Source: Thermostichus lividus PCC 6715
Lineage (GTDB): Bacteria > Cyanobacteriota > Cyanobacteriia > Thermosynechococcales > Thermosynechococcaceae
Direction: 5' to 3'
DNA length: 64,000 bases
Assembly: GCF_002754935.1 (NCBI RefSeq)
Contig: NZ_CP018092.1
Location: 1,302,001-1,366,000, forward strand
Positions 35,763-59,069 of this stretch are shown here, piece after piece. The translations under genes and the position numbers were made by a program. How positions within the stretch are numbered: position 1 is the first letter of the stretch; each line of letters starts with the position of its first letter. The notes under the pieces are model-generated. The model had not been told where the DNA came from and did not search any database. It was given only the letters and a program-made list of their open reading frames with translations.

Positions 35763-35768
35763 AACCAT

Positions 35769-37996: not shown

Positions 37997-38217
37997 CGGT
38001 GGCAGCCCAGCCACAAACTGACGATCATCACATTTGAGCAATCCCTGAGCGCATCTTGCGATTGCATGAAACGCATCAATCGTCAGTTAGCGAAGGATCT
38101 GAATTTGCGGGAGACTCTTCATCTTCAATAGACGATAAAATACTACACTCTGTCCCCTTTTTTAGGTCGCTTAACCTAACTTTCAACACTTCTGCTTCTG
38201 TCGATAAACGGTAACCT

Positions 38218-38790
38218 ATGGAACTGCGAAATCGCCTTGGGGGAGTCAATATTTACCTTGTCGGGATGATGGGTTCCGGCAAAACCACGACTGGCAAAGT
38301 ACTAGCAAAACGCTTAGGCTACGGCTTTGTGGATACTGATGCCGTTATTACACAGGTGCGCCAACAGTCAATTCGGGAGATTTTTGCCCGTGAGGGGGAA
38401 GCCTACTTTCGCCAGTTGGAGCAGCAAGTTCTAGCGGAGGTATCCAGCTATCACCATTTGGTGGTGGCCACGGGCGGTGGCATTGTTCTCAGTTCGCTGA
38501 ACTGGAGCTATCTGCGCCATGGAATTGTGGTGTGGTTACACGTGCCCATTGCAGTCCTGTGCGAGCGTTTAGCCGCAGATGCTGAGCGCCCTCTGCTGCA
38601 AGAGCAACCCCTCGAAGAGCGATTGAACCAGATCATGGCCGATCGCCATGCCCTCTATGCCCAAGCAGATCTCGAAGTGGTGATCAGACAAACGGATACG
38701 CCAGCAAAGGTGTGCGATCGCCTCTGGGAGGCTCTACCCAGTATTCTTAAGCCCATTGCTTCAGATGCACCCCCTAAAGAACCATGCTAG
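38218..38790 (+). CDS. aroK: Shikimate kinase
   Basis: The 190-residue protein has Walker A (GMMGSGKTTTGKVLAKRLG), the shikimate-binding DTDAVI, EAYFRQLEQQ and ATGGGIVLS, and a lid region with ERPLLQE. It phosphorylates shikimate in aromatic amino acid synthesis. Length is slightly above that of E. coli AroK. Its 3' end overlaps the DUF4126-like gene by 7 bp, so the two are probably co-transcribed. The 221-bp gap upstream holds no gene. Confidence 0.96.
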   Translation: MELRNRLGGVNIYLVGMMGSGKTTTGKVLAKRLGYGFVDTDAVITQVRQQSIREIFAREGEAYFRQLEQQVLAEVSSYHHLVVATGGGIVLSSLNWSYLRHGIVVWLHVPIAVLCERLAADAERPLLQEQPLEERLNQIMADRHALYAQADLEVVIRQTDTPAKVCDRLWEALPSILKPIASDAPPKEPC

Positions 38791-39335
38791 AACTTCTCGC
38801 CATCCTTTCAGCCGCGGCGGCTGGGGGCTTACGGCTAGCCTTACCGCTGCTATTGATTGGTTTGTTACAAGGGCCACAGCTATGGTCAGCAGTGCCGTTA
38901 CTGGGGAAGCTATCCCCGTACTGGGTTGTGGGGGTTCTGACGGGTTGGGCGTTCCTAGAGCTATTTCTAAGGGGGCATCCTTGGGGATACCGTCTGATTA
39001 TCTTGGTGCAACTCTGTTTTAGTCCCTTTGTGGGTGCCCTACTGGGGATGACGGTGGCTACAGCAACCGCAACCCCTCAATGGCTGGTGGGCACTCTCAG
39101 CGGCTTATTTGCCCTTGTGGTGCAACTGGTGCAGGTGGGATGGTTCTATCGCCTTGGCAAGCTACCGCGCTGGCTTGTAGTGGCTCAAGATATCCTGTGC
39201 ATTCTCTTAATCTTATTTGCCCTCAAAGCGCCCACTCAAGGTGGCCTGATTGCCCTGCTGTTGCTGTGGCTAGTGGTGCGGAGTGCCAAGGATTGGCGAC
39301 AACAGCAACAACGGACTCAAAAGCAACTGCGCTGA
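38784..39335 (+). CDS. DUF4126-like integral membrane protein
   Basis: The 183-residue protein has about five hydrophobic segments with a glycine/leucine-rich first helix (LLAILSAAAAGGLRLALPLLL), PYWVVGVLTGWAFLELFL and FVGALLGMTVATATA. This pattern fits the DUF4126 family of bacterial membrane proteins, whose function is unknown. It starts 7 bp inside aroK, is translated with it, and has a basic C-terminal tail (RSAKDWRQQQQRTQKQLR) likely in the cytoplasm. No transport motif can be named. Confidence 0.75.
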   Translation: MLELLAILSAAAAGGLRLALPLLLIGLLQGPQLWSAVPLLGKLSPYWVVGVLTGWAFLELFLRGHPWGYRLIILVQLCFSPFVGALLGMTVATATATPQWLVGTLSGLFALVVQLVQVGWFYRLGKLPRWLVVAQDILCILLILFALKAPTQGGLIALLLLWLVVRSAKDWRQQQQRTQKQLR

Positions 39336-39394
39336 GTCACTCTACCCCCCAAGTCTTATGCTACAGTCTCCCTAGGGTGGACGGAGAACTCGTT

Positions 39395-39946
39395 ATGGAT
39401 ATGCGTCAAAGTGTGATCGCAACAATTGTGTTGGGGGCGATCGCCAGCGGTCAGAGCATTGCTAGTCCTTCACCGCAACTGCGACAACTATTCACCACCA
39501 ACGCCTGTCCGGGCTGTGACCTGAGTAATGCCGATCTACGCGGATATAACTTGGCTGGAGCAAACCTGCGGGGAGCCAATCTCCAAGGAGCCAATCTCCA
39601 GGATGCCACGCTACTGCTGGCCAACCTTGAGAGAGCAAACCTCAGTAATGCGAACTTAACAGCGGCCTACCTCGAACGCGCTAATCTGCAACAGGCGAAT
39701 TTGACTGGCGCAACCCTCGTGCTAGCTACCCTGCGCCATGCTAGCTTCCGCCGTGCCAACCTCACGAATGCCAACCTCAGTGGTGCGGATATTCGCTATG
39801 GTGATTTTCGTCGTGCCAACCTCAGCAGTGCCAACTTCGAGCAAACGAACCTGCAATGGGCACGTCTGAACGGTGCAACTATGAATCAGACCAATTTTGA
39901 AGAGGCCTATCGCCCTCGTATGCCCTACGGCCTTAACCTGTGGTAG
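39395..39946 (+). CDS. Secreted pentapeptide-repeat protein
   Basis: The 183-residue protein begins with a signal peptide (MRQSVIATIVLGAIASGQSIA) and a cysteine-containing cap, TTNACPGCDLSNADL. The rest is a run of about 22 A(D/N)LXX repeats (ANLRGANLQGANLQDATL...) forming a right-handed quadrilateral beta helix. Pentapeptide proteins in the cyanobacterial lumen or periplasm are common, but their targets are mostly unknown. The ATG at 39395 follows GGAGAA at about 10 bp. A longer frame starting inside the DUF4126 gene exists, but the signal peptide decides the start. Confidence 0.88.
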   Translation: MDMRQSVIATIVLGAIASGQSIASPSPQLRQLFTTNACPGCDLSNADLRGYNLAGANLRGANLQGANLQDATLLLANLERANLSNANLTAAYLERANLQQANLTGATLVLATLRHASFRRANLTNANLSGADIRYGDFRRANLSSANFEQTNLQWARLNGATMNQTNFEEAYRPRMPYGLNLW

Positions 39947-40034
39947 GAGCCGGCGATCGCGCTGAGGCTACAAACGGGTTGGCAACGTTCTGTACCTGCC
40001 ACCTAATTTTCGCCACTTTTGGGAAGTCAGTTAT

Positions 40035-40117
40035 GGGAAAAGCGAAGCAACGCGGCTTCAGCCCGTTGCGTAGCATCCTTTGGGAATCCCCTCTCTTTCA
40101 AGGAGGGGAGAAGTCAA
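40035..40117. repeat. 83-bp repeat, copy B
   Basis: Identical over 83 bp to 34717-34799. On the minus strand it begins at the stop codon of the adjacent cupin gene: TGA is read at 40116-40114, so the cupin frame ends inside the repeat. This suggests the copy was inserted at the 3' end of that gene. Confidence 0.8.
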
Positions 40118-40533
40118 GCCCAGCCTTCGATAGTCACATCTACGCGATCGCCCTCGTGAGACAGCGGTGCGATGTTTAGGTAATAAAGAGGAGTATCTGC
40201 GGATAGATTGCGCAGCCAGTGAAGGCATTGGGCATCCACATGGACGTAGGAGCCTGTTTCTACGGGGGTGCGAGTTAAGGCAGTTGCAGCCACCGCATTG
40301 GCAGGCGGAGTCATCGGGCAGGTAATGAGTTCGCCAACCCCAGCCACAATTAAAAAGACATCATCCCCACGGTGGTGGTAGTGAGGGTAGTTTGCCTGTC
40401 CTGGCTCAATGCGATAGAGACTGGAGGCCAAGTCTGGATTGTGATGATCCAGCGGGCAAACAGCATAGCCCGGTCGTTTGGGAATCCACGTTTGACAACG
40501 GTCAACTAATTCTGGAAAGGAAAAAACAACCAT
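40114..40533 (-). CDS. Single-domain cupin protein
   Basis: From ATG 40533 the protein has 139 residues. Cupin motif 1 is visible in PHYHHRGDDVFLIVAGVGELI (His, His, Asp metal ligands) and motif 2 in ETGSYVHVDAQCLHWLRNL (His, His). Substrate and metal are unknown. The first five residues of the longer frame depend on TTG 40548, so ATG 40533 is preferred. The last two codons and the stop lie at or inside the 83-bp repeat, so the native C-terminus may have been longer. Confidence 0.75.
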   Translation of the reverse strand: MVVFSFPELVDRCQTWIPKRPGYAVCPLDHHNPDLASSLYRIEPGQANYPHYHHRGDDVFLIVAGVGELITCPMTPPANAVAATALTRTPVETGSYVHVDAQCLHWLRNLSADTPLYYLNIAPLSHEGDRVDVTIEGWA

Positions 40534-40633
40534 AGTCGTTGGGGTCAATAGCCAAATTCTGTCTATGGGTTTATTGTATCCTCTAGCGATCGCGGTATCC
40601 TAGCTAGGCAGTGGGCTAAAGCCGGAGTCTTGG

Positions 40634-41449
40634 ATGAGTATGCAAATCCCTGTGATTGTTGTTGGTGCCTTGGGCAAGATGGGTCGCGAGGTGGTTAAGG
40701 CGGTGCAGCACGCCCCAGATACTCAACTCTACGCAGCCGTTGATCGGCACCACATCGGTGAAGATGTTGGCGAAGTTCTGGGGGTGGGGGCGCTGGAGGT
40801 TCCCCTCAGCGGCAGTCTCCAAGAGGTTTGCGTTGCCGCAGCCCAAGAAAAACAGCCAGTTGTCATGGTGGACTTTACCCACCCCCAAGCAGTTTATGAG
40901 AATGTCCGCATGGCCATTGCCTACGGCGTTTATCCGGTGGTGGGGACGACCGGCCTCAGCCATGACCAGATTGCTGACCTTGCCGAGTTTGCAGATAAAG
41001 CAGAGATGGGAGCGGTGATTGCTCCCAACTTTTCGATCGGTATGGTGTTGCTGCAAGAGGCCGCTATTCGCGCTAGTCAGTACTTTGATCATGTGGAAAT
41101 TATTGAACTGCACCACAATCAAAAGGCGGATGCCCCCAGTGGAACAGCCGTGCAAACTGCTCAGCGCTTGGCAGAGCTAGGTAAACCCTTTAACCCTGCC
41201 CAAGTGGAGGAAACGGAACATCTGGCTGGTGCTCGTGGTGCTCACGCTAGTGGCAATATTCGCATTCACAGTGTGCGCCTCCCGGGGTTAATTGCCCACC
41301 AAGAGGTGATTTTTGGCTCAGCAGGGCAAGTCTATACCCTCCGCCACGATACTAGCGATCGCCAATGCTATATGCCCGGTGTCCTCTTAGCCATTCGGAA
41401 AGTTATCCATCTCAAACGCCTGATCTATGGCCTTGAAAAGCTGCTCTGA
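40634..41449 (+). CDS. dapB: 4-hydroxy-tetrahydrodipicolinate reductase
   Basis: The 271-residue protein has the NAD(P)-binding [15 protein letters not shown], the hinge [15 protein letters not shown], the catalytic [18 protein letters not shown] and [16 protein letters not shown]. It makes tetrahydrodipicolinate on the way to diaminopimelate and lysine. Length and start are normal. It is followed after 49 bp by an IS605-type remnant. A tandem MSM start is possible; ATG 40634 or 40640. Confidence 0.96.
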
Positions 41450-41498
41450 GGGATAGCACATCTGGCACATTATCGAATCGAATTGGTAGTGGTGAACA

Positions 41499-41810
41499 GT
41501 TGACATCCTCCCTTCACTGCGCTCAGGAAGGGGATTCCATCGGAATACAAGGGTATCAAGGAAGGAGTTGAGGTGGTTGCTGTACCACCTGCCTATACCA
41601 GTCAAACCTGCCATTGTTGCTTGCATATTGGGCTGAGGACTGAAAAAAAGTTCAAGTGTGGGCATTGCGGATGGATTGGTGATGCAGACCTAAATGGAGC
41701 AATCAATATTGCGCTTTTGGGGCAGTCCGTAACGCTGCCTGGAGGCTCCTGGCTGGCTTGCGAGATAGCCGGAGGGCTACAGAAAGCCTCGCCCTTCTAG
41801 GGCGGGGAAG
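41499..41810 (+). mobile_element. Internally deleted IS605-type element
   Basis: A left-end hairpin (GTTGACATCCTCCC... to about 41539) is joined directly to the last part of a tnpB gene (from about 41543), followed by a right-end hairpin (GCCTCGCCCTTCTAGGGCGG, 41787-41806). The total is about 310 bp, against roughly 1.3 kb or more for a complete element. No tnpA is present. The right edge abuts a truncated corA, so the element may have been inserted in corA. Confidence 0.7.
41543..41800 (+). pseudogene. C-terminal fragment of TnpB (IS605 OrfB)
   Basis: The frame encodes about 85 residues: EYKGIKEGVEVVAVPPAYTS, then a zinc finger with Cys pairs (TCHCC and KCGHCGW), then DADLNGAINIALLG, where the Asp is the third RuvC catalytic residue. 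These belong to the C-terminal end of TnpB RNA-guided nucleases. The N-terminal two-thirds, including the first RuvC residues, are missing, so it cannot be active. Confidence 0.85.
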
Positions 41811-42014
41811 TTTACCCTCATTGTCGGCATCTATGGCATGAACTTTGATCCTGAAGTCTCGCCTTGGAATATGCCAGAACTACGTTGGTATTGGGGGTAT
41901 CCCCTCTGCTGGGCAATCATGTTGGCGGTGGCTTCCAGCCTATTTGCTTTTTTTGGGCGCAAGGGCTGGTTCCAAAGTAGTACTGGCATTGATCCACCCG
42001 ATTTGAATTGTTGA
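41811..42014 (+). pseudogene. corA: C-terminal remnant of magnesium transporter CorA
   Basis: The frame directly after the IS element reads FTLIVGIYGMNFDPEVSPWN, with the GMN motif of CorA, then a second hydrophobic segment (YPLCWAIMLAVASSLFAFF) and the tail RKGWFQSSTGIDPPDLNC before TGA 42014. This is the last 67 residues of a CorA-type Mg2+ channel. No N-terminal part lies between dapB and the element, so the gene is a fragment. Confidence 0.85.
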
Positions 42015-42165
42015 TCGCTGATTTGCAGGTCAGCCCGTGTAGCTGTTCTAAGCCTATGCGGCATGGGGAATTCAAGCGGTCGGTAGAGAGCATCCCAACC
42101 CAACAGGAACGGTAGTTCCTTGCCATCTTTAGTGAAGATGCGTTATAGTAGATAAGCCAAGACGA

Positions 42166-42239
<74 letters not shown>

Positions 42240-42256
42240 TACATAACCTTTTGACA

Positions 42257-42946
42257 CTAAACTGAGAGTGTTGTTTCTGATAGGCGGCCATCTTCCATGT
42301 GGATCAGGCGATCGGCCACGTCTAGGATGCGGTTGTCGTGGGTCACAATTAGGATGGTGCAGCCCTGCTCCCGTGCTAGGTTGCGCATGATTTCCACCAC
42401 ATCCCGACCAGATTTTTTATCGAGGGCAGCCGTGGGTTCGTCAGCAAGCACAATTTTGGGATGCGCCACAAGGGCACGGGCGATCGCCACCCGCTGCTTT
42501 TGGCCGCCAGAGAGTTGGTGGGGATAGTAATCCAGATGATCTTGGAGGCCAACGGCGCAAAGCATTTCATCGACCCGCTTTTTCGCCTGTTTCGCTGAAA
42601 CGTGAGGTTGCAGATCCATTGCCATCTGCACATTTTGGCGAGCCGTGAGAGCATGGAGCAAATTATGGCCTTGAAAGATGTAGCCTGTTTGGCGGCGGAT
42701 TTGAATTTGCTGCTCAGTGGTAGAATGGCGCAGTTCTTGACCTAAAACGCGCAAGCTGCCTTCTTGAGCAGAGCGCAGGGCACCAATGAGGGTCAAGAGG
42801 GTTGTTTTGCCAGACCCTGACGGTCCTGTCATAATTACAATTTCACCCGCATCAATGTGGGCGGACAGATCAAAGAGTACCTGTTTGCGCAGATGACCAT
42901 GGCCAAAGTAGTGGTTTAGCCCCTGAATACTGATCACTGGCTCCAT
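42257..42946 (-). CDS. devA: DevA-family ABC exporter ATP-binding protein
   Basis: The 229-residue ATPase has Walker A (GPSGSGKTTLL), LSGGQKQRVAIARALV (signature) and Walker B (IVLADEPTAALD) with the switch His in VTHDNR. DevA powers the DevBCA exporter, known in filamentous strains for heterocyst glycolipid export and present in unicellular relatives with unknown cargo. It starts 10 bp after devC in a devB-devC-devA operon. Nothing else follows before the tRNA. Confidence 0.9.
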   Translation of the reverse strand: MEPVISIQGLNHYFGHGHLRKQVLFDLSAHIDAGEIVIMTGPSGSGKTTLLTLIGALRSAQEGSLRVLGQELRHSTTEQQIQIRRQTGYIFQGHNLLHALTARQNVQMAMDLQPHVSAKQAKKRVDEMLCAVGLQDHLDYYPHQLSGGQKQRVAIARALVAHPKIVLADEPTAALDKKSGRDVVEIMRNLAREQGCTILIVTHDNRILDVADRLIHMEDGRLSETTLSV

Positions 42947-42955
42947 TAGCGTCTC

Positions 42956-44110
42956 CTAGAAAATATCCGCCGGATCCGCTGCCTGCACCCGCCGCATGGC
43001 GATCGCCCCCGCTAGGGTACACATCGTAACGGTCAAGGTAAAGACAAGCGTTGCTCGCTCCAATGTCATCCACACCGGCAACGAGGTGGCATTGGCAATC
43101 ACCGTATATAAAGCAAACGAAACAACAAAGCCCGGTAAAAAGCCAAGACAAGACAGAATCAGCGACTCTTGCATCACCACGCCATAAAAAAAGATATCGC
43201 GGTAGCCCATGGCTTTGAGGGTGGCATATTCTGCAAGGTGGTCGGTCACGTCGGTATAGAGGATTTGATAGACAATCACCGAACCAACAATAAACCCCAT
43301 CAACGCACCAAGGGAAAAGATAAACCCAATGGAGGTACTCTTCTCCCAGTAGCTCCGCTCAAACTCAGCAAAATCGTTGCGGGTCATCACCAGCACATCG
43401 TTCCCCAAGGTTGCGCCAATTCGCTTCGCAAGTGCCTTGGCATCCACGCCGGGCTTAACTCGCACCAGCCCCACATCAATCAGGCCGGGGTTGCGATCCG
43501 GAAACATCCGTAAAAAATTAAGATCACTCGTGAGCAGATTACCATCTGCGCCAAAGTTCGCCCCCATGGTAAACAAACCCGCCACCTGAATGCGCCGCCC
43601 CGACACCTCTGTCGTGACAGGTTCACCGGTGCGGTACAGTTCGGGGATAGGACCAAATTCAGCCCGTGACTGGGCATCGAAGAGCACGTGATCCGATAGC
43701 TTCAGCGCATTTTGCCAACCCGGAGTATCCGACACCTGCAGTGCCATAGCCATTGGATCGACCCCAATCACCATTAGTTGACGGGTACTTTTGTTGATGG
43801 GGTTGCGCCAAAGACCAAAGCTTAGGTAGAGCGGCGAAATCGACTCTACTCCGTCAAAGCCTGCCGCTTGGAAGAGCCGTCGTCGCGGAAAGCTTTTCAT
43901 CGCAATGAGGGCAGTGGACTGCGGACTGATGAGCACGATGTCGGTGTTCAGGCTTTCGTGGAACCGCACCGCTGCTTTGAATAGGGCGTCGCGAAAGCCA
44001 AACTGCATCAGCATGAGCACAACGGCAAAGGCAATGCCAGCGATCGCCACCAAGAGACGAATGCGCTCGCGAATAAGTTGTAGCCAAGCAAGGGGAATCG
44101 CAAAAATCAT
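42956..44110 (-). CDS. devC: DevC-family ABC exporter permease (FtsX-like)
   Basis: The 384-residue protein has one N-terminal transmembrane helix (RLLVAIAGIAFAVVLMLMQFG), a large periplasmic domain (about residues 45-255) and three C-terminal helices (FSLGALMGFIVGSVIVYQILY, LSCLGFLPGFVVSFALYTVI, LVFTLTVTMCTLAGAIAMRRV). This is the MacB/FtsX four-helix topology. In the exporter it pairs with DevA and connects to the membrane fusion protein DevB. It starts 10 bp after devB. It has no unusual features. Confidence 0.9.
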   Translation of the reverse strand: MIFAIPLAWLQLIRERIRLLVAIAGIAFAVVLMLMQFGFRDALFKAAVRFHESLNTDIVLISPQSTALIAMKSFPRRRLFQAAGFDGVESISPLYLSFGLWRNPINKSTRQLMVIGVDPMAMALQVSDTPGWQNALKLSDHVLFDAQSRAEFGPIPELYRTGEPVTTEVSGRRIQVAGLFTMGANFGADGNLLTSDLNFLRMFPDRNPGLIDVGLVRVKPGVDAKALAKRIGATLGNDVLVMTRNDFAEFERSYWEKSTSIGFIFSLGALMGFIVGSVIVYQILYTDVTDHLAEYATLKAMGYRDIFFYGVVMQESLILSCLGFLPGFVVSFALYTVIANATSLPVWMTLERATLVFTLTVTMCTLAGAIAMRRVQAADPADIF

Positions 44111-44119
44111 GGGTGTGCC

Positions 44120-45286
44120 TCAGGAGCGCGGATCAATCGCAACTTCCACCTGCATATTCGTTAGCCCCGCTACAGGTTTACTCTCCGCTAAGCGCACCCT
44201 GACCTCCACCACCCGTACATCCGTATCGGCAGCCGGATCAGTCCCTGTCAGGTCATTCTTGGCCACCAACAATCCCACACGGGTCACCTCGCCGGCAATC
44301 GGTGCAGCAAGGGCGCTACTGCGAATTTCCGCCCGCTGTCCCACCCGCACTCGCGGCACATCTGTTTCGTAAACCTCCGCAACGGCGTACATTTGATCCG
44401 TGTTACCTAGTTCCAGAATGCCTTTGTCGTTAATGTTTTCCCCCGCTCGCGTATGAATCCGTAGCACAGTGCCATTCCGGGGTGCCCGGATAGTGGCGCG
44501 CTCTAAACGGGCTTCTGCGAGTTCTAAATTACGCTCCGCCGACAGTAGTTGCACTTGGGTTTGCACCCGCCCTAGGTTCGCTTGAGCCGCTTCCACCTGA
44601 GCCGTTGCAGTGGCCAGTTCAGTCCGTCGCTCCTGTTGCAAGCGCACAAGGTTGGCCTGGGCATTGCGGAGTTCTTCTTGCAGCGTGCGGACTCGGATGG
44701 CACGATCATCCAGATCCTGTTGGGACACTGCACCGTCACTAAAAAGCTGCCGAAAGCGCTGATATTCACGATCGGCGGTGTCGAGTTCAGCAGTGATCCG
44801 CTGGAGCGTGGCTTGCTGCGCCTGAATTTCCGCAAGCTTGGGTTCATTGACCCGCTCACGCCGTGCCTGAGCTTCACCAATTTCGGCTCTTGCTAAACGG
44901 GTTTCGGCATCAAACCGCAATCGTGCTTCTTGAAGCTGACTGGCGGCCAAATCCCGCTCCGCTTTGCGCTCAGGATAGGTATCTAGGTAGGCTAGCACTT
45001 GACCCGCAACGACCCGATCGCCCTCCTGAACCAAGAGTTGTCCCAAGCGTTCGGTCATGGCGGGGGCACTGACGGCAATCACCTCCCCCTCCGGTTCTAA
45101 GCGGCCTAGGGCAGTAATGCGATCGCTGACAGGGCTGGGAAGTGCTGCTGAGGTGGCCTCATCTTGGGCAGAGCGGCGTAACTGCTGCCAATAGCTCACA
45201 CTGATGCCGATACTTACCAAGCCGAGAGCGATCGCCCCACCGATGAGCCATGGACGACCGACGTGAAATGGAAACGGCTGTCCCAT
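44120..45286 (-). CDS. devB: DevB-family periplasmic adaptor (HlyD/membrane fusion protein)
   Basis: The 388-residue protein has a single N-terminal transmembrane helix (PWLIGGAIALGLVSIGISVSY), a biotinyl-lipoyl-like segment (ALGRLEPEGEVIAVSAP), a long alpha-helical hairpin (about residues 115-250, many heptads) and beta domains at the C-terminus (VLRIHTRAGENI). Such adaptors bridge an inner-membrane ABC transporter and a TolC-like outer-membrane channel. It is the first gene of the devBCA cluster; a gap of about 245 bp to mrp holds no gene and must contain both promoters. Confidence 0.9.
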   Translation of the reverse strand: MGQPFPFHVGRPWLIGGAIALGLVSIGISVSYWQQLRRSAQDEATSAALPSPVSDRITALGRLEPEGEVIAVSAPAMTERLGQLLVQEGDRVVAGQVLAYLDTYPERKAERDLAASQLQEARLRFDAETRLARAEIGEAQARRERVNEPKLAEIQAQQATLQRITAELDTADREYQRFRQLFSDGAVSQQDLDDRAIRVRTLQEELRNAQANLVRLQQERRTELATATAQVEAAQANLGRVQTQVQLLSAERNLELAEARLERATIRAPRNGTVLRIHTRAGENINDKGILELGNTDQMYAVAEVYETDVPRVRVGQRAEIRSSALAAPIAGEVTRVGLLVAKNDLTGTDPAADTDVRVVEVRVRLAESKPVAGLTNMQVEVAIDPRS

Positions 45287-45532
45287 TGGAGCACCCTCAA
45301 CTGATCCAGGGCAAAAAGGCCACTAGCGTTATTCAATCTTAATACATCCGCCCCTCTTTGTTAAGGAATAATAAGTCCCTCGCACCTGTGACCTGCATTT
45401 AGCCTGACTCAGGAAAACCCATAGATGAAACCTTGGGTACAGGAGCTTGAATCAGCAATTGACCATCGCTAAGGCGATCGGCAACCAATGGTACGATCGC
45501 TCTACACACATCATTCATTCCAAGTATCGTTC

Positions 45533-46612
45533 ATGAGCGCCCCCCTCACCATCGACTCTGTACTCGCTGTTTTGCGCCCTGTGGAAGACCCAGAGCTGCG
45601 GCGATCCCTTGTGGAACTGAATATGATCCGCGATGTACAGATCACGGATGGTCGGGTGCAGTTTACCCTTGTCCTCACAACTCCTGCGTGCCCACTGCGG
45701 GAGTTTATTGTGGAAGACTGCAAAAAAGCCGTGTTCACCTTGCCAGGGGTCATGGCGGTAGATGTGACGGTTACAGCAGAAACGCCTCAGCAAAAAAGCC
45801 TACCGGATCGTACCGATGTGACAGGGGTGAAAAACATTATTGCCGTCTCCAGTGGCAAAGGGGGGGTGGGCAAAAGCACCGTTGCGGTTAATTTGGCGGT
45901 GGCCTTGGCGCAAGCCGGCGCTAAGGTAGGCATTATTGATGCCGATATTTATGGCCCCAACGTCCCCACAATGCTAGGCCTCGAAAATGCCATTGTCGAA
46001 GTCCGTAAGGAGGCCAGCGGTGATGTGTTGCTCCCTCCAGTGGCCCATGGCCTCAAAGTAGTCTCCATGGCCTTTTTAATTGATCGCGATCAGCCAGTGA
46101 TCTGGCGTGGCCCCATGCTTAACGGCATTATTCGCCAATTCCTTTACCAGAGTGATTGGGGGGACCTCGACTATCTCATCGTCGATTTACCCCCTGGTAC
46201 CGGCGATGCCCAGCTCACCCTTGCCCAAGCGGTACCCATGGCCGGTGTGGTCATTGTCACAACCCCTCAAACCGTCGCCTTAGGCGATGCCCGCCGCGGC
46301 CTACGCATGTTTCAGCAGTTAGGGGTCGCGGTGCTGGGGCTGGTGGAAAACATGAGCTATTTTATTCCGCCGGACTTACCCAATCGGCGCTACGATATTT
46401 TTGGCACCGGTGGCGGAGATGCCCTTGCCGCTGAACTGGGCGTGCCTCTCCTAGGCCAAGTTCCCCTTGAACTAACGGTGCGCGAAGGCGGGGATGTTGG
46501 CCTGCCGATTCTAATCAACCATCCCGACTCTGCCTCAGCCCAAGCCCTACGGGCGATCGCCCAGCAGGTGGCAGCACGAGTCTCGGTCGCCGCCCTCAGT
46601 GCAGTGGGATGA
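45533..46612 (+). CDS. mrp: Mrp/ApbC family iron-sulfur cluster carrier ATPase
   Basis: From ATG 45533 the protein has 359 residues. It has an N-terminal DUF59/MIP18 domain (PVEDPELRRSLVELNMIRDV, with Cys in TPACPLREFI), a deviant Walker A (SSGKGGVGKSTVAVNLA), and the IDADIYGPNVP, DLPPGTGDAQLTLAQ motifs of the Mrp subgroup of ParA ATPases. A CxxC near the C-terminus, used by many relatives to bind 4Fe-4S, is not visible here. It carries iron-sulfur clusters to apoproteins. lspA starts 4 bp before its stop. Confidence 0.93.
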   Translation: MSAPLTIDSVLAVLRPVEDPELRRSLVELNMIRDVQITDGRVQFTLVLTTPACPLREFIVEDCKKAVFTLPGVMAVDVTVTAETPQQKSLPDRTDVTGVKNIIAVSSGKGGVGKSTVAVNLAVALAQAGAKVGIIDADIYGPNVPTMLGLENAIVEVRKEASGDVLLPPVAHGLKVVSMAFLIDRDQPVIWRGPMLNGIIRQFLYQSDWGDLDYLIVDLPPGTGDAQLTLAQAVPMAGVVIVTTPQTVALGDARRGLRMFQQLGVAVLGLVENMSYFIPPDLPNRRYDIFGTGGGDALAAELGVPLLGQVPLELTVREGGDVGLPILINHPDSASAQALRAIAQQVAARVSVAALSAVG

Positions 46613-47079
46613 AGGCAAAAAAGTTAAAAAATGCCAATTTTTGGTGGGCTGCGCTGCTGTGTTTGGGGCTGGATCGCCTCACCAAGGCTTGGGTTGTTGC
46701 CAATTACACCCTAACAGTCCCGCCGCAAACAACCCCCATTCTGCCCGGTATTTTTCACATTACCTACGTCACCAATACAGGGGCTGCCTTTAGCCTGTTT
46801 GCCAATGGGAGCCTCTGGCTGCGCTGGTTATCGCTGCTAGTTAGTTTACTTCTCATCGCGTGGGCTATCTGGGGGCCTCACCTCAACCGCTGGCAGCAGG
46901 TGGGCTACGGTTGCTTACTGGGCGGTGCCCTCGGCAATGGAATTGATCGCTTCTTGACTGGTGAAGTGGTGGACTTTTTAGACCTGCGCTGGATTCAGTT
47001 TCCAGTCTTTAATATCGCTGACATTGCCATCAATATCGGCATTCTCTGCTTACTGTGGTCTGCATGGCGGCAATCATGA
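46609..47079 (+). CDS. lspA: Lipoprotein signal peptidase (signal peptidase II)
   Basis: The 156-residue protein has four transmembrane helices and the aspartic protease residues in GNGIDRFLTGEVVDFLDLRW and FNIADIAINIG, with the conserved TYVTNTGAAFSLF. It cleaves lipoprotein signal peptides after lipidation. Its ATG overlaps the mrp stop codon (ATGA at 46609-46612), so mrp and lspA are translated together. The first residues (KAKKLKNANFWW) are basic, consistent with the cytoplasmic N-terminus. Confidence 0.95.
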   Translation: MKAKKLKNANFWWAALLCLGLDRLTKAWVVANYTLTVPPQTTPILPGIFHITYVTNTGAAFSLFANGSLWLRWLSLLVSLLLIAWAIWGPHLNRWQQVGYGCLLGGALGNGIDRFLTGEVVDFLDLRWIQFPVFNIADIAINIGILCLLWSAWRQS

Positions 47080-47094
47080 GTGACTTTGAAGGTT

Positions 47095-48216
47095 TCAACG
47101 AGTACTGTAGCCACTGCTCACCACAAATGTTGTATTGTTATCACTCAACTGCGGAAAACTAGGGGGTGGGCAATGGTTAAATTGGCCAAAGTAGGCATCC
47201 AAGGGGGGTGGCAAGGGTGGTAACGTGACTTGGGTGTCACCCTTGGCAATGTCTGGCCAGAGAGTCGAGAGCGGCTTGGCTAAGGCAGTCGCTTGCCCTT
47301 CAGGGAGGTTAAAGGGCGGTAGCATTAAAAACCGTGCCATAAACCCAGCCCCCCGTTGCAGCATCCACTCGCGTGACTGTGCAGCCAAATTGGGATAGGC
47401 TGCTAAGGATTCAATACAGAAGGATTCCACCTGTACCTGCCATTGACCATGCTCGGTTTCAGTTAAGGTGAGGCGGCGGTAGGGGTGGGGGTAGCTGACT
47501 AAGGCACCCGTTGTGAGGTCAAACACACCATCAGCATAGGCAATATCCTGAATGTGCAGGTGGCCAGTTAACACCAGTGAGACACCAGCGCGTTGCAGAA
47601 GGGTGTGTAGGGCTAGGCGGTTCTTGAGGAGGTATCGCTGCCCCATTGGACTTTGGCTTTGTTGCGGCCAATGCTCTAAGAGGTTATGGTGCACCATCAC
47701 CAGCCGTAAGCCAGCAAAGGGCTGAGCCAACAGTTCCTGAAGCCATTGAAGTTGCTGGCAATCTAACTCGCCCAGTTGCTGACCTATAGGGCTAAACTGG
47801 TTCGAGTTTAAGGCAACGAGTTGTATGTTTTTGCTAAGGTGGGTGACGTAATAGTGTGTGCTTCTCTGGCCGTACCCTGCATGGGCATAATACTGGGGAA
47901 ACTCAGCCCAGCCAATGCGGCCTGCGCTCGCCACAGGTCGGGGAACATCATGATTGCCCGGAATCACATAGGCGGGAATGGGCAGGGTTCGTAAGTATGC
48001 CTGCAACCACTGATGATTAGCCACCTCGCCATCTCGGGTGAGGTCTCCCGGCAGGAGCAGCGCGTCTATACCGCGCTCTAGCAAATCAGTAACGGCGGCT
48101 TCAAACGCTGGAATACTGATGGTGTAAAGAAAGAGGGGGAGGTGATCTGTCGGAATGGTCTCCGGCAAGGCAATGTGTGGGTCGCTAATGATACCGAGGC
48201 GCAATACCATCCCCAC
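47095..48216 (-). CDS. Calcineurin-like metallophosphoesterase
   Basis: The 373-residue protein has the five blocks of the fold: GIISDPHIAL (Asp, His), LLPGDLTRDGEVANH (Asp), VIPGNHDVPRP (Asn, His), VMVHHNLLEH and VLTGHLHIQD. These bind two metals. It is of the CpdA/Icc type, but the substrate (cyclic nucleotide, phospholipid or other) is not known. The C-terminal 100 residues are less conserved. It starts 3 bp after purH, on the same strand, so it is probably co-transcribed with it. Confidence 0.85.
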   Translation of the reverse strand: MGMVLRLGIISDPHIALPETIPTDHLPLFLYTISIPAFEAAVTDLLERGIDALLLPGDLTRDGEVANHQWLQAYLRTLPIPAYVIPGNHDVPRPVASAGRIGWAEFPQYYAHAGYGQRSTHYYVTHLSKNIQLVALNSNQFSPIGQQLGELDCQQLQWLQELLAQPFAGLRLVMVHHNLLEHWPQQSQSPMGQRYLLKNRLALHTLLQRAGVSLVLTGHLHIQDIAYADGVFDLTTGALVSYPHPYRRLTLTETEHGQWQVQVESFCIESLAAYPNLAAQSREWMLQRGAGFMARFLMLPPFNLPEGQATALAKPLSTLWPDIAKGDTQVTLPPLPPPLDAYFGQFNHCPPPSFPQLSDNNTTFVVSSGYSTR

Positions 48217-48218
48217 TC

Positions 48219-49775
48219 CTAGTGACGAAAGTGTCGCTGACCGGTAAAGACCATGGCAATACCGGCTTCATTGGCCGCTTGAATGGAGTCGTGATCCCGC
48301 AAGCTACCGCCAGGTTGAATAATGGCGGCAATCCCTGCTAAGGCCGCTGCCTGTACGGAGTCGGCAAAGGGGAAAAAGCCATCACTGGCTAGCACTCCCC
48401 CCCGCGCTGCCTCGCCCGCATCGGCAAGGGCAATTTGCACGGCTCCCACCCGATTGGCTTGGCCGGCGCCAATGCCTTGGGTTTGGCGATCGCGACTCAC
48501 GACAATGGCATTGGACTTCACATGCTTGACCACCTTCCAAGCAAAGAGGAGTTCCGCCATCAGTTCCGGGGCTGGTTCCGCTGCTGTCATGACCTGCCAT
48601 GTGTCTGGTTCAATAGGCATCGGGCGAATATCTTGGACTAAAAATCCGCCAGCAATGGTTTGAATGGCTGTTTCCGGTGCCTCAGTCAGATCGCTGAGGG
48701 TCAGTACCCGTAGCTTGGGCTTTGTTTTTAGGATGGGGAGTGCCTCTGGCTCACACCCAGGAGCTACAACGCATTCTAAGAAGGTACCGGTAAGGGCTTT
48801 GGCGGTGGCGGCATCAATGGGTTGGTTGAGAGCGACAATGCCGCCAAAGGCAGAGACACTATCGGCAGCAAAGGCACGCTCATAGGCCTCAAGGAGGGTG
48901 TTCCCCTCCGCAACCCCACAGGGGTTGGTGTGTTTGATGATCGCCACTGCTGGGGTATTGGTCTGGGTAAATTCGCTAATGATAGCGCGGGCGGCTTCAA
49001 GGTCAAGGAGGTTGTTATAGCTGAGTTCTTTTCCTTGGCATAGCTCGGCGGCAGACCAGCCCCTAGGCGCTGTGCCAGTCATATACCATGCGGCGACTTG
49101 GTGTGGGTTTTCGCCATAGCGCAGCACTTGTTTTTGTTGGCCACTGAGATGAAAGACGGCTGGTAGATGAATTCCCTTAGAAGGTGGCATGGCAATTTGC
49201 TGCAAGTAGGTGGCGATCGCCTGATCGTAGCTGGCCGTAAGCACAAAGGCACGTTGGGCACACTCTAAGCGATACTCCAGTCGGGGCTGCTTGTACAGGC
49301 GTAATTCGTGAAGATAGCTGTCGTACTGGCTCGGGTGGACTAACACCGTGGTGTGAGCATAGTTTTTGGCCGCTGCTCGTACTAGGGTAGGCCCGCCAAT
49401 ATCAATTTGCTCGATCGCCTCTGCTACTGTAATGTTGGGCTGCGCAATGGTCTCGGCAAAGGGATAGAGATTCACCACGACCAAATCAATGGGGTCGATC
49501 CCGTGCTCAGCCAGATCTGCTAAATCCTCGGGGCGATCGCGGCGAGCGAGGATACCACCATGAATTTTAGGATGAAGGGTTTTAACCCGCCCCCCCAAGA
49601 TTTCTGGGGCAGCGGTGTACTCGGCAACGGCGGTCACGGGAATGCCCGCCGCCGCTAGAGTTTTTGCAGTGCCCCCACTGCTGAGGAGCGTAAAGCCAAA
49701 CTCCTGTACCAATGCCGCAGCAAAGTCCGTCACTCCAGTTTTATCACTGGTACTGAGTAAGGCAATGCGCCCCAC
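48219..49775 (-). CDS. purH: Bifunctional AICAR transformylase/IMP cyclohydrolase
   Basis: The 518-residue protein catalyses the last two steps of purine synthesis. The N-terminal IMP cyclohydrolase domain begins GRIALLSTSDKTGVTDFA and has VKTLHPKIHGGIL; the transformylase domain begins near residue 205 with RYGENPHQVAAWY and contains AIIKHTNPCGVA and FPFADSVQAAA. The frame extends to a TTG at 49796, but GTG 49775 lies 8 bp after GGAGG and just before the conserved RIALLS, so GTG is the start. It is 18 bp from prs on the same strand. Confidence 0.96.
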   Translation of the reverse strand: MGRIALLSTSDKTGVTDFAAALVQEFGFTLLSSGGTAKTLAAAGIPVTAVAEYTAAPEILGGRVKTLHPKIHGGILARRDRPEDLADLAEHGIDPIDLVVVNLYPFAETIAQPNITVAEAIEQIDIGGPTLVRAAAKNYAHTTVLVHPSQYDSYLHELRLYKQPRLEYRLECAQRAFVLTASYDQAIATYLQQIAMPPSKGIHLPAVFHLSGQQKQVLRYGENPHQVAAWYMTGTAPRGWSAAELCQGKELSYNNLLDLEAARAIISEFTQTNTPAVAIIKHTNPCGVAEGNTLLEAYERAFAADSVSAFGGIVALNQPIDAATAKALTGTFLECVVAPGCEPEALPILKTKPKLRVLTLSDLTEAPETAIQTIAGGFLVQDIRPMPIEPDTWQVMTAAEPAPELMAELLFAWKVVKHVKSNAIVVSRDRQTQGIGAGQANRVGAVQIALADAGEAARGGVLASDGFFPFADSVQAAALAGIAAIIQPGGSLRDHDSIQAANEAGIAMVFTGQRHFRH

Positions 49776-49813
49776 GCCGTGTCCCTCCAATGGCAACGTC
49801 TAGACAATTCATC

Positions 49814-50803
49814 CTAGCGGAACATGCTGCTGACAGAGCTATCTTCATGGACACGCCAAATCGTTTCCCCAAGAATACTGGCCACCGACAGCACCGTTAA
49901 TTGCTCAAACCGCTGAGTTTCTGGTACCGGAATTGTATTGGTGACAATGACTTCCTCAAAATCGCCCCCCTGCAATCGTTCAATGGCTGGTGGCGAAAAT
50001 ACTGCGTGGGTCGCACAGGCATACACCTCCTTTGCTCCCTCCCGTCGCAGTAGCCGTGCCCCTTCCAAAATGGTGCCCGCCGTATCAATCATGTCATCTA
50101 CCAGTATTGCGGTTTTCCCCTTAACATCCCCAACCACATTCATCACTTCGGCCACATTATGGGATTGGCGACGCTTGTCAATAATGGCTAGGGGGGCATC
50201 GTCCAGCTTGTTAGCAAAGGCACGGGCACGAGCCACCCCGCCCACATCCGGTGAGACCACCACAATGTCTTCGAGGTTTTTACTGCGCAGGTAATCTAAG
50301 ATCACTGGCGAGCCATATACATGATCCACCGGAATATCAAAATAGCCTTGAATTTGTGCCGAGTGCAGATCCATTGCTAAAACGCGACTTGCCCCTGCTT
50401 GGGTAATCAGGTTGGCCACCAACTTGGCCGTAATGGACTCACGCCCAGCGGTTTTGCGATCGGCTCGGGCATAGCCATAGTAAGGAATGACCGCGGTGAC
50501 TTGTCGTGCCGACGCACGGCGGCAGGCATCCACCATGATCAATAGTTCCATGAGATGGTCGTTCACCGGATGGCAGCAGGGCTGAATGAGGTACACATCA
50601 CAGCCGCGAATGGATTCCTGAATCTGCACATACAGCTCGCCATCCGCAAATCGCTTCCGTACCATTGGGCCTAAGTCAATGCCAAGGTAGCGGGCAATTT
50701 CTTGAGCGAGGGGAATGTTGGCAGAACCAGCGAAAAGCTTTAGGCGACTGTGGTCGGCAATGTAAGAGGGAGTTGTAACGGGCAGTGGAACAGTGCGAAT
50801 CAC
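49814..50803 (-). CDS. prs: Ribose-phosphate pyrophosphokinase
   Basis: The 329-residue protein makes PRPP from ribose 5-phosphate and ATP. It contains LKLFAGSANIPLAQEIARYLG, the catalytic flexible loop at about 105-120 (YGYARADRKTAGRESITA), MDLHSAQIQGYFDIPVDH and the PRPP signature VDDMIDTAGTILEGA. An N-terminal extension of about 12 residues (IRTVPLPVTTPS) precedes the core. It sits upstream of purH on the same strand, linking PRPP supply with purine synthesis. It is divergent from the sugar permease. Confidence 0.97.
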   Translation of the reverse strand: MIRTVPLPVTTPSYIADHSRLKLFAGSANIPLAQEIARYLGIDLGPMVRKRFADGELYVQIQESIRGCDVYLIQPCCHPVNDHLMELLIMVDACRRASARQVTAVIPYYGYARADRKTAGRESITAKLVANLITQAGASRVLAMDLHSAQIQGYFDIPVDHVYGSPVILDYLRSKNLEDIVVVSPDVGGVARARAFANKLDDAPLAIIDKRRQSHNVAEVMNVVGDVKGKTAILVDDMIDTAGTILEGARLLRREGAKEVYACATHAVFSPPAIERLQGGDFEEVIVTNTIPVPETQRFEQLTVLSVASILGETIWRVHEDSSVSSMFR

Positions 50804-53454: not shown

Positions 53455-53949
53455 CTAAATATCAAAGCGATAGCGCACAGCTCCAGTTTCTGGATCGTTA
53501 AACACGGTTGCGTAGCCTACTCGCTGTGCTTCGAATAATAGCTCTTCAATCGTTTGGGCATCAAGTTGGGTATATAGGGCTGCTTGGGCAGCAGAGAGCA
53601 CTCCACCATGATCTTTAGCGGCTTGGAGAAGACGGAGCATTGGGCTAGGGGTGTCTTCGGTGAGCCACTCCTGCGACCGGAGATAGCGTCCCCGCAAGTA
53701 CGTATTGCGGTGAGCAACCATACCCGGAATTAAAACTAAGTCTAAGAACTGCCCAACGCCACAAAAGCCAAAGGTGATTAAGTACAAAACACCCATAATT
53801 GGCTGGCCGACGTAAAACCGCTGGATGCCACAGAGACCAAATAAACTCAAGCACCACAGGAGATAGGCAACCCATACCTTCAAGAAGTGAGGCTGGGGTA
53901 CCCCTTGACTTGATTGCGGTGTGTTTTGGTAGTGCAGTGTTTGCGGCAT
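53455..53949 (-). CDS. TM2-domain protein
   Basis: The 164-residue protein has two hydrophobic segments around residues 30-75 (AYLLWCLSLFGLCGIQRFYVGQ, IMGVLYLITFGFCGVGQFLDLVLIP) with the TM2 signature GIQRFYVGQ...G and the Asp in DLVLIP. A cytoplasmic helical region follows with a winged-helix-like part (LDAQTIEELLFEAQRVGYATVFND). TM2 proteins are of unknown function. It ends next to decayed IS sequence and is a single gene. Confidence 0.88.
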   Translation of the reverse strand: MPQTLHYQNTPQSSQGVPQPHFLKVWVAYLLWCLSLFGLCGIQRFYVGQPIMGVLYLITFGFCGVGQFLDLVLIPGMVAHRNTYLRGRYLRSQEWLTEDTPSPMLRLLQAAKDHGGVLSAAQAALYTQLDAQTIEELLFEAQRVGYATVFNDPETGAVRYRFDI

Positions 53950-54103
53950 TTTTACGTCACTGATGCATCCATAAACTATCTTAACGACTTAGCTAAATCG
54001 GCGGGAAGTTCCGCACTGTATGTGTGAATTGTGTTTACTCAACGAAGATGAGTGTCGGGGGTAGGTGACACCGGACATCCCCATCCTCAGAACAGAAGCC
54101 GGA

Positions 54104-54562
54104 TCAACGGCTGCGCTCCATTTCAAGACGATAGCGATTTTTCTTTGTAGTTTGAATCTCTTGGATCACGAGTTTGCCTTTACCTCGAATGGTGATGAGG
54201 TCGTTCACTTTGACGGCATACCGGGGGTGCTGCACAACGTGCCAGTTGACGCGCACCATACCACTGCTAATCCATTCACTTATTTTGCTGCGGGAGAGGC
54301 CAAATCCAGCTGAGGCAACGACATCGAGGCGCAGAGAGGCTTCGACGGTGGTGAGATGCTTGGTTTGCGGCGGCGCAATGGCCAATTGATCCCAAGGACA
54401 GGGGGCAACGGTTACAGCTGCCTCTAGGGCTGACTTAAAATCGATATAGGTGGCGGGGTCAAACAGAAAGTTACCGCTAATGCGCACCAAGGCTAGGGGA
54501 GGACGTTGATCGTCTAGGGATAGCTCCGCAGGGGCGATCGCCATTGCTGAATAACTTCCCAC
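54104..54562 (-). pseudogene. Truncated photosystem II S4-domain protein
   Basis: The 152-residue frame ends with an S4 RNA-binding domain (TTVEASLRLDVVASAGFGLSR, WISSGMVRVNWH, IRGKGKLVI) as in the cyanobacterial 'PSII S4 domain protein', a YlmH-type family of about 260 residues as I recall. The N-terminal 90 or so residues are missing, and about 35 residues between NFLFDPATYIDF and the S4 domain appear deleted. It may be a decayed gene, though a naturally short version cannot be excluded. Confidence 0.6.
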
Positions 54563-54798
54563 TCTGTTACACGACTAATGAGGGGCAGGGTTGCCGTAAA
54601 AGTTTGACGAACCGGTGGGGGCATCAGCACGGAATCAGAACCCACAGGTGGAACGATTTCCTCTTGGGCAACACAGGTAGGTGGCGATGATTCCTCTTGC
54701 GTAAGCAGTTCCTCATACAGCTTACAGGTTGTCGGACTGGGATTGACCCCCAGTTCTGCTTGCAAGGTCATCATGGACTGGTGATACACCCGTAGCAC
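54514..54798 (-). pseudogene. Fragment of a BTAD-type transcriptional activator
   Basis: The 94-residue frame starts LRVYHQSMMTLQAELGVNPS and continues to KLYEELL, the last helices of a bacterial transcriptional activator domain found in SARP/AfsR and large regulator proteins. No DNA-binding domain upstream and no ATPase downstream are present. Its 3' end overlaps the S4 fragment by 49 bp in another frame, over a GCGATCGC palindrome. It is a truncated remnant. Confidence 0.65.
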
Positions 54799-55127
54799 AC
54801 CTTTAGTTGTGTTTAGTTGTGCGCTGGAACTGCCAACAACAGAAACCGCCTAGCGTTGCTGAATAGACGTATGACTTTCGGGTTTGAGTCTTTTGCCGCC
54901 CTCACCCTAGCCCTCTCCCAAAGGAGAGGGAACAAGACTCTTAGCTTCCTTTTCCCTGGGGAGAAGGGTTGGGGATGAGGGAATTCATAGCTACATTCAG
55001 CAGCACCCTTCCGATTATGCTGGCCTACAACCTCTATAACTATTTGGTATTCCGTGGCTAGGTGGTTGCCTAGAGGCCTCTCCCAATTTGGTAAGCTAGG
55101 GAATGCCCTTTAAGATCCACCGATGCT
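54799..55127. other. Intergenic region with an inverted repeat, upstream of cysH
   Basis: No gene is evident in these 329 bp. The main structure is an inverted repeat (separate entry). A tandem TTTAGTTGTG (two copies, 54802-54821) borders the BTAD fragment. The 70 bp before cysH should contain its promoter. Confidence 0.5.
54899..54981. repeat. REP-like inverted repeat, 83 bp
   Basis: CCCTCACCCTAGCCCTCTCCC (21 bp) is inverted at 54960-54981 as GGGAGAAGGGTTGGGGATGA plus GGG, with a central hairpin CTCCCAAAGGAGAG. This fits the common intergenic 'CCCTCACCC' palindromes in cyanobacteria and other bacteria. It occurs once in the window. Confidence 0.6.
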
Positions 55128-55838
55128 ATGGCCACCTCCACTAGCTTTGATCTCGATGCCCTCAATCAACAGTTCGAGGGCGCACACCCCCGTGACATTC
55201 TGGCTTGGGCTGTGGCGGCCATTCCCCAGGGATTGGTACAAACCAGTGCGTTTAATGTCGATGATGTCATGATCACAGACTTGCTGTACCGCGAGTTGCA
55301 GCCTACCCCCGCCGTGCCTGTGCTCTTTTTAGATACGCTCCACCACTTTCCGGAAACCCTTGAGTTTGTCCAAAAAGCTAAGGACACCTACCAGCTTGAC
55401 CTGCATACCTACAAAATTCGCGAGGTGGATAGTCGAGCAGCCTTTGCTGAGCGCTATGGCGATCGCCTGTGGGAAACCAATGTAGAGCAATTCCATTACC
55501 TAACAAAAATTGAACCTTTGCAGCGGGGCCTAGCTGAACTGAACACCGTTGCTTGGATTACCGGGCGGCGCCGCGATCAGGCCGTGACCCGGGCTGACAT
55601 GCCCTACGTGGAACGGGATAAAGACGGTCGCCTCAAAATCAATCCATTGGCTGCTTGGACACGCAAGCAAACTTGGGCTTACGTGGCAGAGCACCATGTC
55701 ATCTACAATCCTCTGCATGATCGTGGCTATGCCAGTATTGGCGATGAACCCTTAACCACACCGGTAGGGGAAGGGGAAGACGAGCGCGCTGGCCGCTGGC
55801 GCGGCATGGGCAAAACGGAGTGTGGTATTCACATCTAG
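55128..55838 (+). CDS. cysH: Phosphoadenosine phosphosulfate reductase
   Basis: The 236-residue protein reduces PAPS to sulfite with thioredoxin. It has [31 protein letters not shown] (PP-loop-like), [18 protein letters not shown] and the redox-active Cys in the terminal TECGIHI. The two extra Cys pairs that hold a 4Fe-4S cluster in APS reductases are absent, so PAPS is the expected substrate. glyQ starts 5 bp after its stop, though the two are functionally unrelated. Confidence 0.93.
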
Positions 55839-57610: not shown

Positions 57611-57895
57611 CTTGATACTCCCCATGCCTAAAGGCAGGGAATTCTTGAGCGAGTCCACAAAGAAACCCTCAAAGGCGTTATCCATGCACCCCTACCAACT
57701 CCCCTAAGACATACTCCCAAGGTTGTTGCTACTTTTCTGAGGATGTTAGCCGCTCCATTACAGTCGGCATTGATATACAGGTTTTGACCAGTCCTATACA
57801 ACCCTCTCTTAACTCTTTTGCCTGATGCACTCCACGTTTGCCGACATGACGACACTACATTCCCACGGAGGAACGGCAAACCACCCTCGATTGTT
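57611..57895 (-). pseudogene. TnpB C-terminal remnant and IS605-type right end
   Basis: The minus-strand frame reads SGKRVKRGLYRTGQNLYINADCNGAANILRKVA, with the NADxNGAANI catalytic-Asp motif of TnpB. Just downstream is a right-end hairpin (CCCTGCCTTTAGGCATGGGG, reading the minus strand; 57620-57640), as at 35975-36004. The element has lost its upstream part. It abuts the end of the GH gene, whose stop TAA (57896-57894) lies at the border. Confidence 0.75.
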
Positions 57896-59069
57896 AGCCC
57901 CGGGTGCAGGCTTGGCCAAAGGTGCGGCGCGGCATGGGATGTCGAAAGTGAAATAGAAAGGCATTTTGACGCAGATCCCGTGGCTCGGGGGTACGCTCCC
58001 AAAGGGTTTCATAAAAGAAAAAGGAAACGCCAAAGCCTGACTGTTGAGCTGCCTCCACCTTCGCATCTACCAGTTGAATGGGGACGGGGTTCGTGCGCAA
58101 CCCCGTAAGCACGCCCACCGCCGTGGGAATTTTCGCCTGTGCTTGGAGCAGTTCCGGTTGAGCCAGTTGCTGGACAAAGCTCGGGAGATTGTAACGATAG
58201 ACTTGTACTACTACTTCATCGGGAATCCCTTGAGCAACCCACTGCGGCCAGTCCTGTAGAAAACTCTGGTAAGCCGTAGGCAAGGTGGTGGGCGATACTG
58301 AGAAAATGGCATAGGGAAACTCCTGCTTCACTCGCTGGCGCAGGCTTTTGACAAAGGCGGTGAGTTTATCGGCACGCCAGCGCATCCATGCCTCATCGCG
58401 GGGGTTTGCTGGGACTGGTTTTTTAGTTTCCTGTTCGTAGAGACGGCGGGTGTAGGCATCATAGCCGAATTCCGTCGGCAGACTCAGGTGATCGTCAAAC
58501 TGAATACCATCCACAGGGTACTGACGCAACACTTCTAGGACAATATTGGTGAGAAATGACTGCACTTCAGGATGTAGCGGGTTGAGCCAAGCCACCTCCC
58601 CTGCAGCAGTGAGGCGGGTGGTCTCGCCATTGACCCCTTGGGTCAGCCAATCGGGGTGGGCGATCGCCAGCTCTGAGGTTTCCGGCACCATGAAGCCAAA
58701 TTCAAACCACGGAATCACTAAGAGATTGCGGCAATGGGCTTGTTCTGTGAGTTCCCGAAGAATGTCGTAGCCCTGTACCCCTTGCAGCACAAAGGGTTGA
58801 ATCCCTAAATGAGTGGCCGTTGCGCTTGGAAAGCTGACATAGCCGGAATTCCAAACCACTGGATAGAGGGTATTAAAATTCAGGCGTTGCAAATCGTTGA
58901 GCGCCGCTTCGAGACGGGGGCGATCGCGCAACATGGGCATATCGTTGGCGGTTAACCACACGCCACGAATTGGTGCCATGCCCTGAGCCTGTAGGGGGAG
59001 GAGCCTCCAGCACAGACCAAGGCAAAGCAGACAGAGGAACAGCCAAAGCCGATAGCGACGACGCACCAT
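57894..59069 (-). CDS. Glycosyl hydrolase-like lipoprotein/secreted protein (GHL10/DUF187 family)
   Basis: From ATG 59069 the protein has 391 residues. It has an N-terminal signal/anchor (RLWLFLCLLCLGLCWRLLPL), then the GHL10 fold: PIRGVWLTANDMPMLRD, FNTLYPVVWNSGYVSF, VIPWFEFGFMVPETSE, WLNPLHPEVQSFLTNIVLEVLRQYPVDGIQFDDHLSLP. FDDH carries conserved acidic residues. Such enzymes are proposed to act on polysaccharides of the cell envelope. The longer frame to 59150 overlaps cbiO. The last few residues may derive from the adjoining IS sequence. Confidence 0.83.
   Translation of the reverse strand: MVRRRYRLWLFLCLLCLGLCWRLLPLQAQGMAPIRGVWLTANDMPMLRDRPRLEAALNDLQRLNFNTLYPVVWNSGYVSFPSATATHLGIQPFVLQGVQGYDILRELTEQAHCRNLLVIPWFEFGFMVPETSELAIAHPDWLTQGVNGETTRLTAAGEVAWLNPLHPEVQSFLTNIVLEVLRQYPVDGIQFDDHLSLPTEFGYDAYTRRLYEQETKKPVPANPRDEAWMRWRADKLTAFVKSLRQRVKQEFPYAIFSVSPTTLPTAYQSFLQDWPQWVAQGIPDEVVVQVYRYNLPSFVQQLAQPELLQAQAKIPTAVGVLTGLRTNPVPIQLVDAKVEAAQQSGFGVSFFFYETLWERTPEPRDLRQNAFLFHFRHPMPRRTFGQACTRG

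Follow-up and report, generated by a model that had tools for sequence, protein, structure and literature searches.

A probable non-functional chimera of a resident S4-gene copy and a putatively foreign BTAD-ATPase regulator piece, joined by short homology at a HIP1 site

How did two truncated genes come to overlap on one strand across a HIP1 site, and does either of them still serve a function? In the window (the whole 64-kb stretch of DNA that was analysed), an ORF for a fragment of an S4-domain protein (54104-54562, minus strand; 152 aa when read from GTG) overlaps by 49 bp an ORF for a fragment of a BTAD regulator (54514-54798, minus strand; 94 aa), and the HIP1 word GCGATCGC lies at 54534-54541 within the overlap. 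These coordinates confirmed a preliminary description of the locus as two truncated same-strand ORFs overlapping across a palindrome. We read the interval, with a probability of about 0.85, as a non-functional chimera in which a 3' copy of the genome's own S4 gene and a foreign BTAD-ATPase piece were joined through short homology at TGGCGATCGC. The most fitting reading of its S4 and BTAD parts is that both are pseudogene remnants, lying at a rearrangement breakpoint rich in repeats.

The S4 part has an intact parent in the same genome, and the loss of the S4 gene that had been suggested at first is thereby contradicted. The home genome, a single contig of 2,659,739 bp (coordinates G000:C1), carries an Sll1252-type S4 gene at G000:C1:1167526-1168332 (L013:7527-8333), 97% identical to the window copy over the common part. 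It was read from TTG, and its true start may be an ATG some 25 codons in. In the profile search, this paralogue passed the cut-off of the PS_II_S4 model TIGR03069 (267.8 vs 201.55 bits). The fragment ORF stayed below the same cut-off with 144.9 bits, its best stretch covering profile positions 155-257 of 257, indicating that the N-terminal part is indeed absent; the S4 domain itself is complete (PF01479, 45.7 bits). The homology between copy and parent takes in the 3' part of the gene and its downstream flank (54022-54543, minus strand; blastn against G000:C1:1167444-1168088) and falls into two blocks, 396 bp at 96.7% and 127 bp at 98.4%, between which the parent has a further 123 bp. Pairwise alignments placed this in-frame deletion of 41 codons at 54417/54418 (minus strand), which accounts for the internal gap noticed earlier; its ends share only about 1 bp of common sequence. 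The right limit of homology, 54543, falls on the HIP1 word, and the left limit, 54022, lies 82 bp past the S4 stop codon, within a dispersed repeat (R1).

No relative was found to hold a conserved short S4 gene as its only copy, the observation that would have spoken against a local rearrangement. A search of 28 other genomes of the family gave an S4 match in 25, each at one locus and none with a second copy, and no match in the other 3. A second copy like that of the window was found in none of the 10 congeners. In two of these ten, the only S4 gene is in two pieces that lie directly against each other (G002:C1:1556142-1556860 and G009:C205:8946-9666), which is a frameshift or a sequencing error and no duplication; these split single genes do not form a conserved short S4 family. 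It might also be proposed that the window copy is the older state and that the intact gene came later, for example by transfer or repair, as the window has R1 in full and only its last 41 bp are left beside the intact gene. However, a 1.8-kb stretch made up of the intact gene and its upstream DNA aligns at 82% to congener G010, and 41 codons that the parent and 8 translated congener genes all have are missing from the copy, which makes this order of events extremely improbable.

The BTAD part proved to be an internal piece of a much longer gene. Its ORF lies just under the PF03704 threshold (21.3 vs 22.1 bits) and matches only profile positions 116-146 of 146, in agreement with the earlier statement that the N-terminus is missing; beyond that statement, nearly all of the downstream ATPase region is missing as well. 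In a class-wide search, 53 of 388 genomes (home genome counted) had a match to the fragment. The closest by far was on contig G135:C235, with 91% protein identity, and the next reached at most 63%. The reverse complement of this contig is identical to JAIMBL010000309.1, a 4622-bp contig of the MAG Leptolyngbyaceae cyanobacterium HOT.MB2.61, and it encodes a 1043-aa frame with BTAD and AAA_16 domains (domain scan on the 812-aa part in locus L086). The window was identical to it at 258 of 267 bases from 54534 to 54800 on the minus strand (97%), and the homology stops at TGGCGATCGC; the last codons of the BTAD ORF run out of frame into the S4 part. When the whole contig was used as a DNA query against the home genome, only the 267-bp regulator piece and a 76-bp match at 81%, outside the regulator gene, were obtained, and no further pieces of the regulator were found. 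The home genome has one other, different BTAD gene (G000:C1:239618-239803). None of the 10 congeners searched had a relative of the fragment, and a search of plasmid records gave one match, 92 bp at 79%, to a Nostoc transcriptional regulator. We consider the regulator piece probably foreign to the home genome. Its parent sits on a 4.6-kb MAG contig that may be mis-binned; the tetranucleotide profile of this contig had a mean r of 0.73 to one bin-mate contig (3 chunks), compared with 0.61 to the window of the home genome (13 chunks).

Where the two parts meet, the junction can be read to the base. On the gene strand, the window reads CAGCAATGGCGATCGCCCCTGCGG, the BTAD parent CAGCAATGGCGATCGCACTGTCTGG and the S4 parent GCCGGTTGGCGATCGCCCCTGCGG. 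Three-way comparison showed that the chimera agrees with the BTAD parent as far as TGGCGATCGC and with the S4 parent thereafter. The homologies 54022-54543 and 54534-54800 overlap by exactly the 10 bp of this word (54534-54543, minus strand), which holds the HIP1 site, and both parents (L086/L112 for BTAD, L013 for S4) read it at the switch point; the longest word common to the two parental regions is 12 bp. HIP1 is present at the junction site in 21 of 30 S4 loci, namely the intact gene of the home genome, all 9 congener loci (congener G002 was left out of this count) and 11 loci of other genera. At the matching codons of the BTAD homologues it occurs in 3 of 29 loci (L086, L047 and L088), the 97% parent among them, and is absent from the junction codon in 26, three of which (L096, L110 and L111) align short of it. 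Since S4 and BTAD loci carry HIP1 at this place, both sites are very likely older than the join. Recombination at a HIP1 site, which had been put forward as the explanation of the junction, is thus strongly supported: the parents were found, each has TGGCGATCGC at the breakpoint, and the switch lies inside the word. HIP1 at the breakpoint in both parents, with a switch inside it and no wider homology, fits the class of HIP1-associated illegitimate recombination.

How much of this could be chance depends on the abundance of HIP1. The 64-kb window holds 93 sites where 0.86 would be expected, which together make up 1.16% of its bases, so that a HIP1 site near any given point is not rare; the telling fact is that both homologies switch inside one. 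Because a random joint would rarely fall in HIP1 and rarely have 10 bp of common sequence, joining through short homology is close to certain at this junction. HIP1 might further be an active recombination site. In that case an enzyme (a nuclease or a recombinase), possibly directed by CGATCG methylation, would cut HIP1 sites or bring them into pairing, and the position of the switch point exactly in HIP1 in both parents would agree with that. However, a comparison of the BTAD contig (4.6 kb) with 5 kb of sequence surrounding the S4 parent gave 47 maximal same-strand words of at least 10 bp in common, 21 of which contain HIP1, and therefore passive joining would be expected to use HIP1 in about 45% of cases. 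The sample moreover consists of one junction only, and the PCC 7942 / E. coli events occurred, according to the passage in PMC4390886, at much lower efficiency. We regard an active role as unlikely. Neither the 5' end of the BTAD piece (54800) nor the left end of the S4 part (54022) lies at HIP1, which accordingly explains one of three joints, and nothing here shows HIP1 to be more than an abundant short homology.

The join also bears on the reading of the S4 part as a functional short form. From 54544 downwards it reads ATG-GCG-ATC-GCC, which puts an ATG (54544-54542) in frame with the S4 part and gives a possible ORF of 146 aa. HIP1 joins could supply an in-frame start codon in this way, because AT followed by GGCGATCGCC reads ATG-GCG-ATC-GCC. 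The 146-aa product might compete with or modulate the full-length S4 protein, as could be argued from the frame, which neither the junction nor the 123-bp deletion interrupts, from the complete S4 domain, from the in-frame ATG and from a pairwise dN/dS of 0.36 against the parent. This ratio comes from 8 non-synonymous and 7 synonymous differences; a base-by-base list gave 8 and 6, the extra synonymous one lying at the deletion edge. Depending on the ratio expected, so few non-synonymous changes in the S4 copy would have a probability of about 0.05-0.13 under neutrality. When the differences were assigned by eye on an alignment of 8 congener genes, 7 of the 14 coding differences went to the copy, 6 of them non-synonymous and 1 synonymous, and 3 of those 6 are at positions identical in all 8 congeners. 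Of the remaining seven, 2 went to the parent (1 non-synonymous, 1 synonymous) and 5 were unplaced (4 synonymous, 1 non-synonymous). The pairwise dN/dS thus speaks mildly for constraint, leaving room for some constraint or for gene conversion, whereas the assigned changes speak against it. Furthermore, a simple consensus scan of 53900-55200 found no promoter-like site where 1.2 were expected by chance, and no such copy occurs in any of the 10 congeners. On these sequence comparisons, the functional short form that had been entertained at first appears unsupported and very unlikely. If it were expressed, the S4 fragment would not necessarily be harmless. The BTAD fragment differs from its parent by 8 non-synonymous changes and 1 synonymous change, as expected in the absence of constraint.

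The S4 family is labelled as a photosystem II electron-transport protein. A passage of one paper places Sll1252 between plastoquinone and cytochrome b6/f (PMC10743179), and a passage of a 2024 paper (PMC11317155) regards Sll1252 / PS_II_S4 as orthologous, in cyanobacteria, to the ribosome-associated quality-control factor YlmH. Since the intact S4 gene is present, the function of the family leaves the reading of the interval unchanged.

The surroundings of the chimera were compared with those in related genomes. To the left lies a TM2-domain gene (53455-53949, minus strand) and to the right a gene that we take to be cysH-like (55128-55838, plus strand), which is present in all 10 congeners and adjoins the TM2 gene in none. 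Of these congeners, 7 consist of a single contig, on which 33 kb or more separate the two genes; the remaining 3 have them on different contigs. Nor were they together in any of the stretches fetched around either of them in G010, G004, G008 and G001. Because these neighbours stand apart in the congeners, the interval is a rearrangement breakpoint. The same separation led to the rejection of an ancestral TM2-cysH arrangement, and the comparison with relatives that had been proposed leaves no ancestral state readable. By eye, G010, G004 and G001 do not agree in the order of genes upstream of the cysH-like gene; around TM2, the order is the same in G004 and G001 and different in G010. In congener G003, the cysH-like gene is in two pieces (G003:C1:1300871-1301579).

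Repeats flank the chimera on both sides; the numbers of matches are lower bounds, from a search in which 40 of 87 candidates were scored. R1 (53988-54062, plus strand), within which the S4 homology starts, has at least 5 other matches in the genome (near G000:C1 913107, 1184300, 1202145, 1532786 and 2450482; 54-76 bp aligned, 83-91% alike) in addition to the truncated one beside the S4 parent, and its copies vary in extent at the right end. R1 was also considered as the end of a tnpB element; by eye, no ORF recognisable as tnpB was seen beside 5 R1 copies. R2 (54853-55010, plus strand) is about 155 bp long, has near-inverted ends (gttgctgaat / attcagcagc) and at least 32 other matches in the genome, and is MITE-like. 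It is followed by a 70-bp stretch (55009-55078, plus strand) that is duplicated at 97% at G000:C1:1600006-1600075. Elsewhere in the window, a 435-bp element at 34365-34799 recurs in the genome in at least 39 further copies, 98-100% identical (40 of 219 candidates scored), and has no ORF of more than 88 aa and no Rfam match at gathering score. It dominated a survey of 30001-50000 for other duplicated segments, which yielded no information on HIP1 junctions. We take its 3' end to be like those of IS200/IS605-type elements, and it is likely a recently active non-autonomous element. The ORF at 57628-58002 has residues (NADCNGAANILRK) that we take to resemble the C-terminal end of TnpB, and is probably the remnant of an IS605-type element.

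The following course of events may be proposed for the chimera. The regulator gene would have come from another cyanobacterium, whose DNA was taken up. The S4 part would have been copied, or derived from a second copy of the chromosome, since the source locus stayed intact. Both genes carry TGGCGATCGC because a HIP1 site is present in both at this place, and short-homology (illegitimate) recombination would have joined the S4 copy and the BTAD piece at this 10-bp word. The left end of the chimera may have settled within R1, and both fragments would now be decaying as pseudogenes. Each part differs from its nearest parent by about 3%, and such similar divergence would fit a single event but does not prove it.

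Many cyanobacterial genomes show a strong over-representation of HIP1, and natural chromosomal junctions whose two parents are known to the base bear directly on whether it takes part in the rejoining of DNA. The present junction is clear-cut, and a genome-wide count that sets an active site against passive homology could be modelled on it. A more far-reaching view, that HIP1 sites are real exchange points which join unrelated, even foreign, cyanobacterial genes and whose joins can supply truncated genes with in-frame starts and so give short protein forms, we think unlikely. A deletion at HIP1 has reportedly occurred at the smtB locus. The biological significance of HIP1 is described as little known in a passage of PMC4390886, and among the papers listed in searches of the open-access literature, no title or abstract opening described this junction.

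Both parts of the chimera can be set against known families. With the cyanobacterial BTAD-AAA (AfsR/SARP-like) regulators, the window fragment shares 97% DNA identity to part of a 1043-aa BTAD + AAA_16 protein, whereas what is left of the regulator is only 267 bp, which run from the end of BTAD through the linker into the first residues of the ATPase region. With regard to Sll1252 / PS_II_S4 (TIGR03069), the parent gene exceeds the model cut-off, whereas the window fragment, at 144.9 bits, lacks the N-terminal part and 41 internal codons. The joining itself is a fresh example of an already known HIP1-type event. PMC4390886 cites reports of HIP1-associated recombination from Synechococcus PCC 7002 and from PCC 7942 / E. 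coli, and as far as that passage goes, the present joint resembles those cases in that it lies at HIP1 and has a short common word without wider homology. However, the reported cases are, by their titles and the cited passage, plasmid or cloned-sequence systems (PMC4390886), whereas in the window a probably foreign fragment and a duplicated resident gene were fused in the chromosome, with both parents identified.
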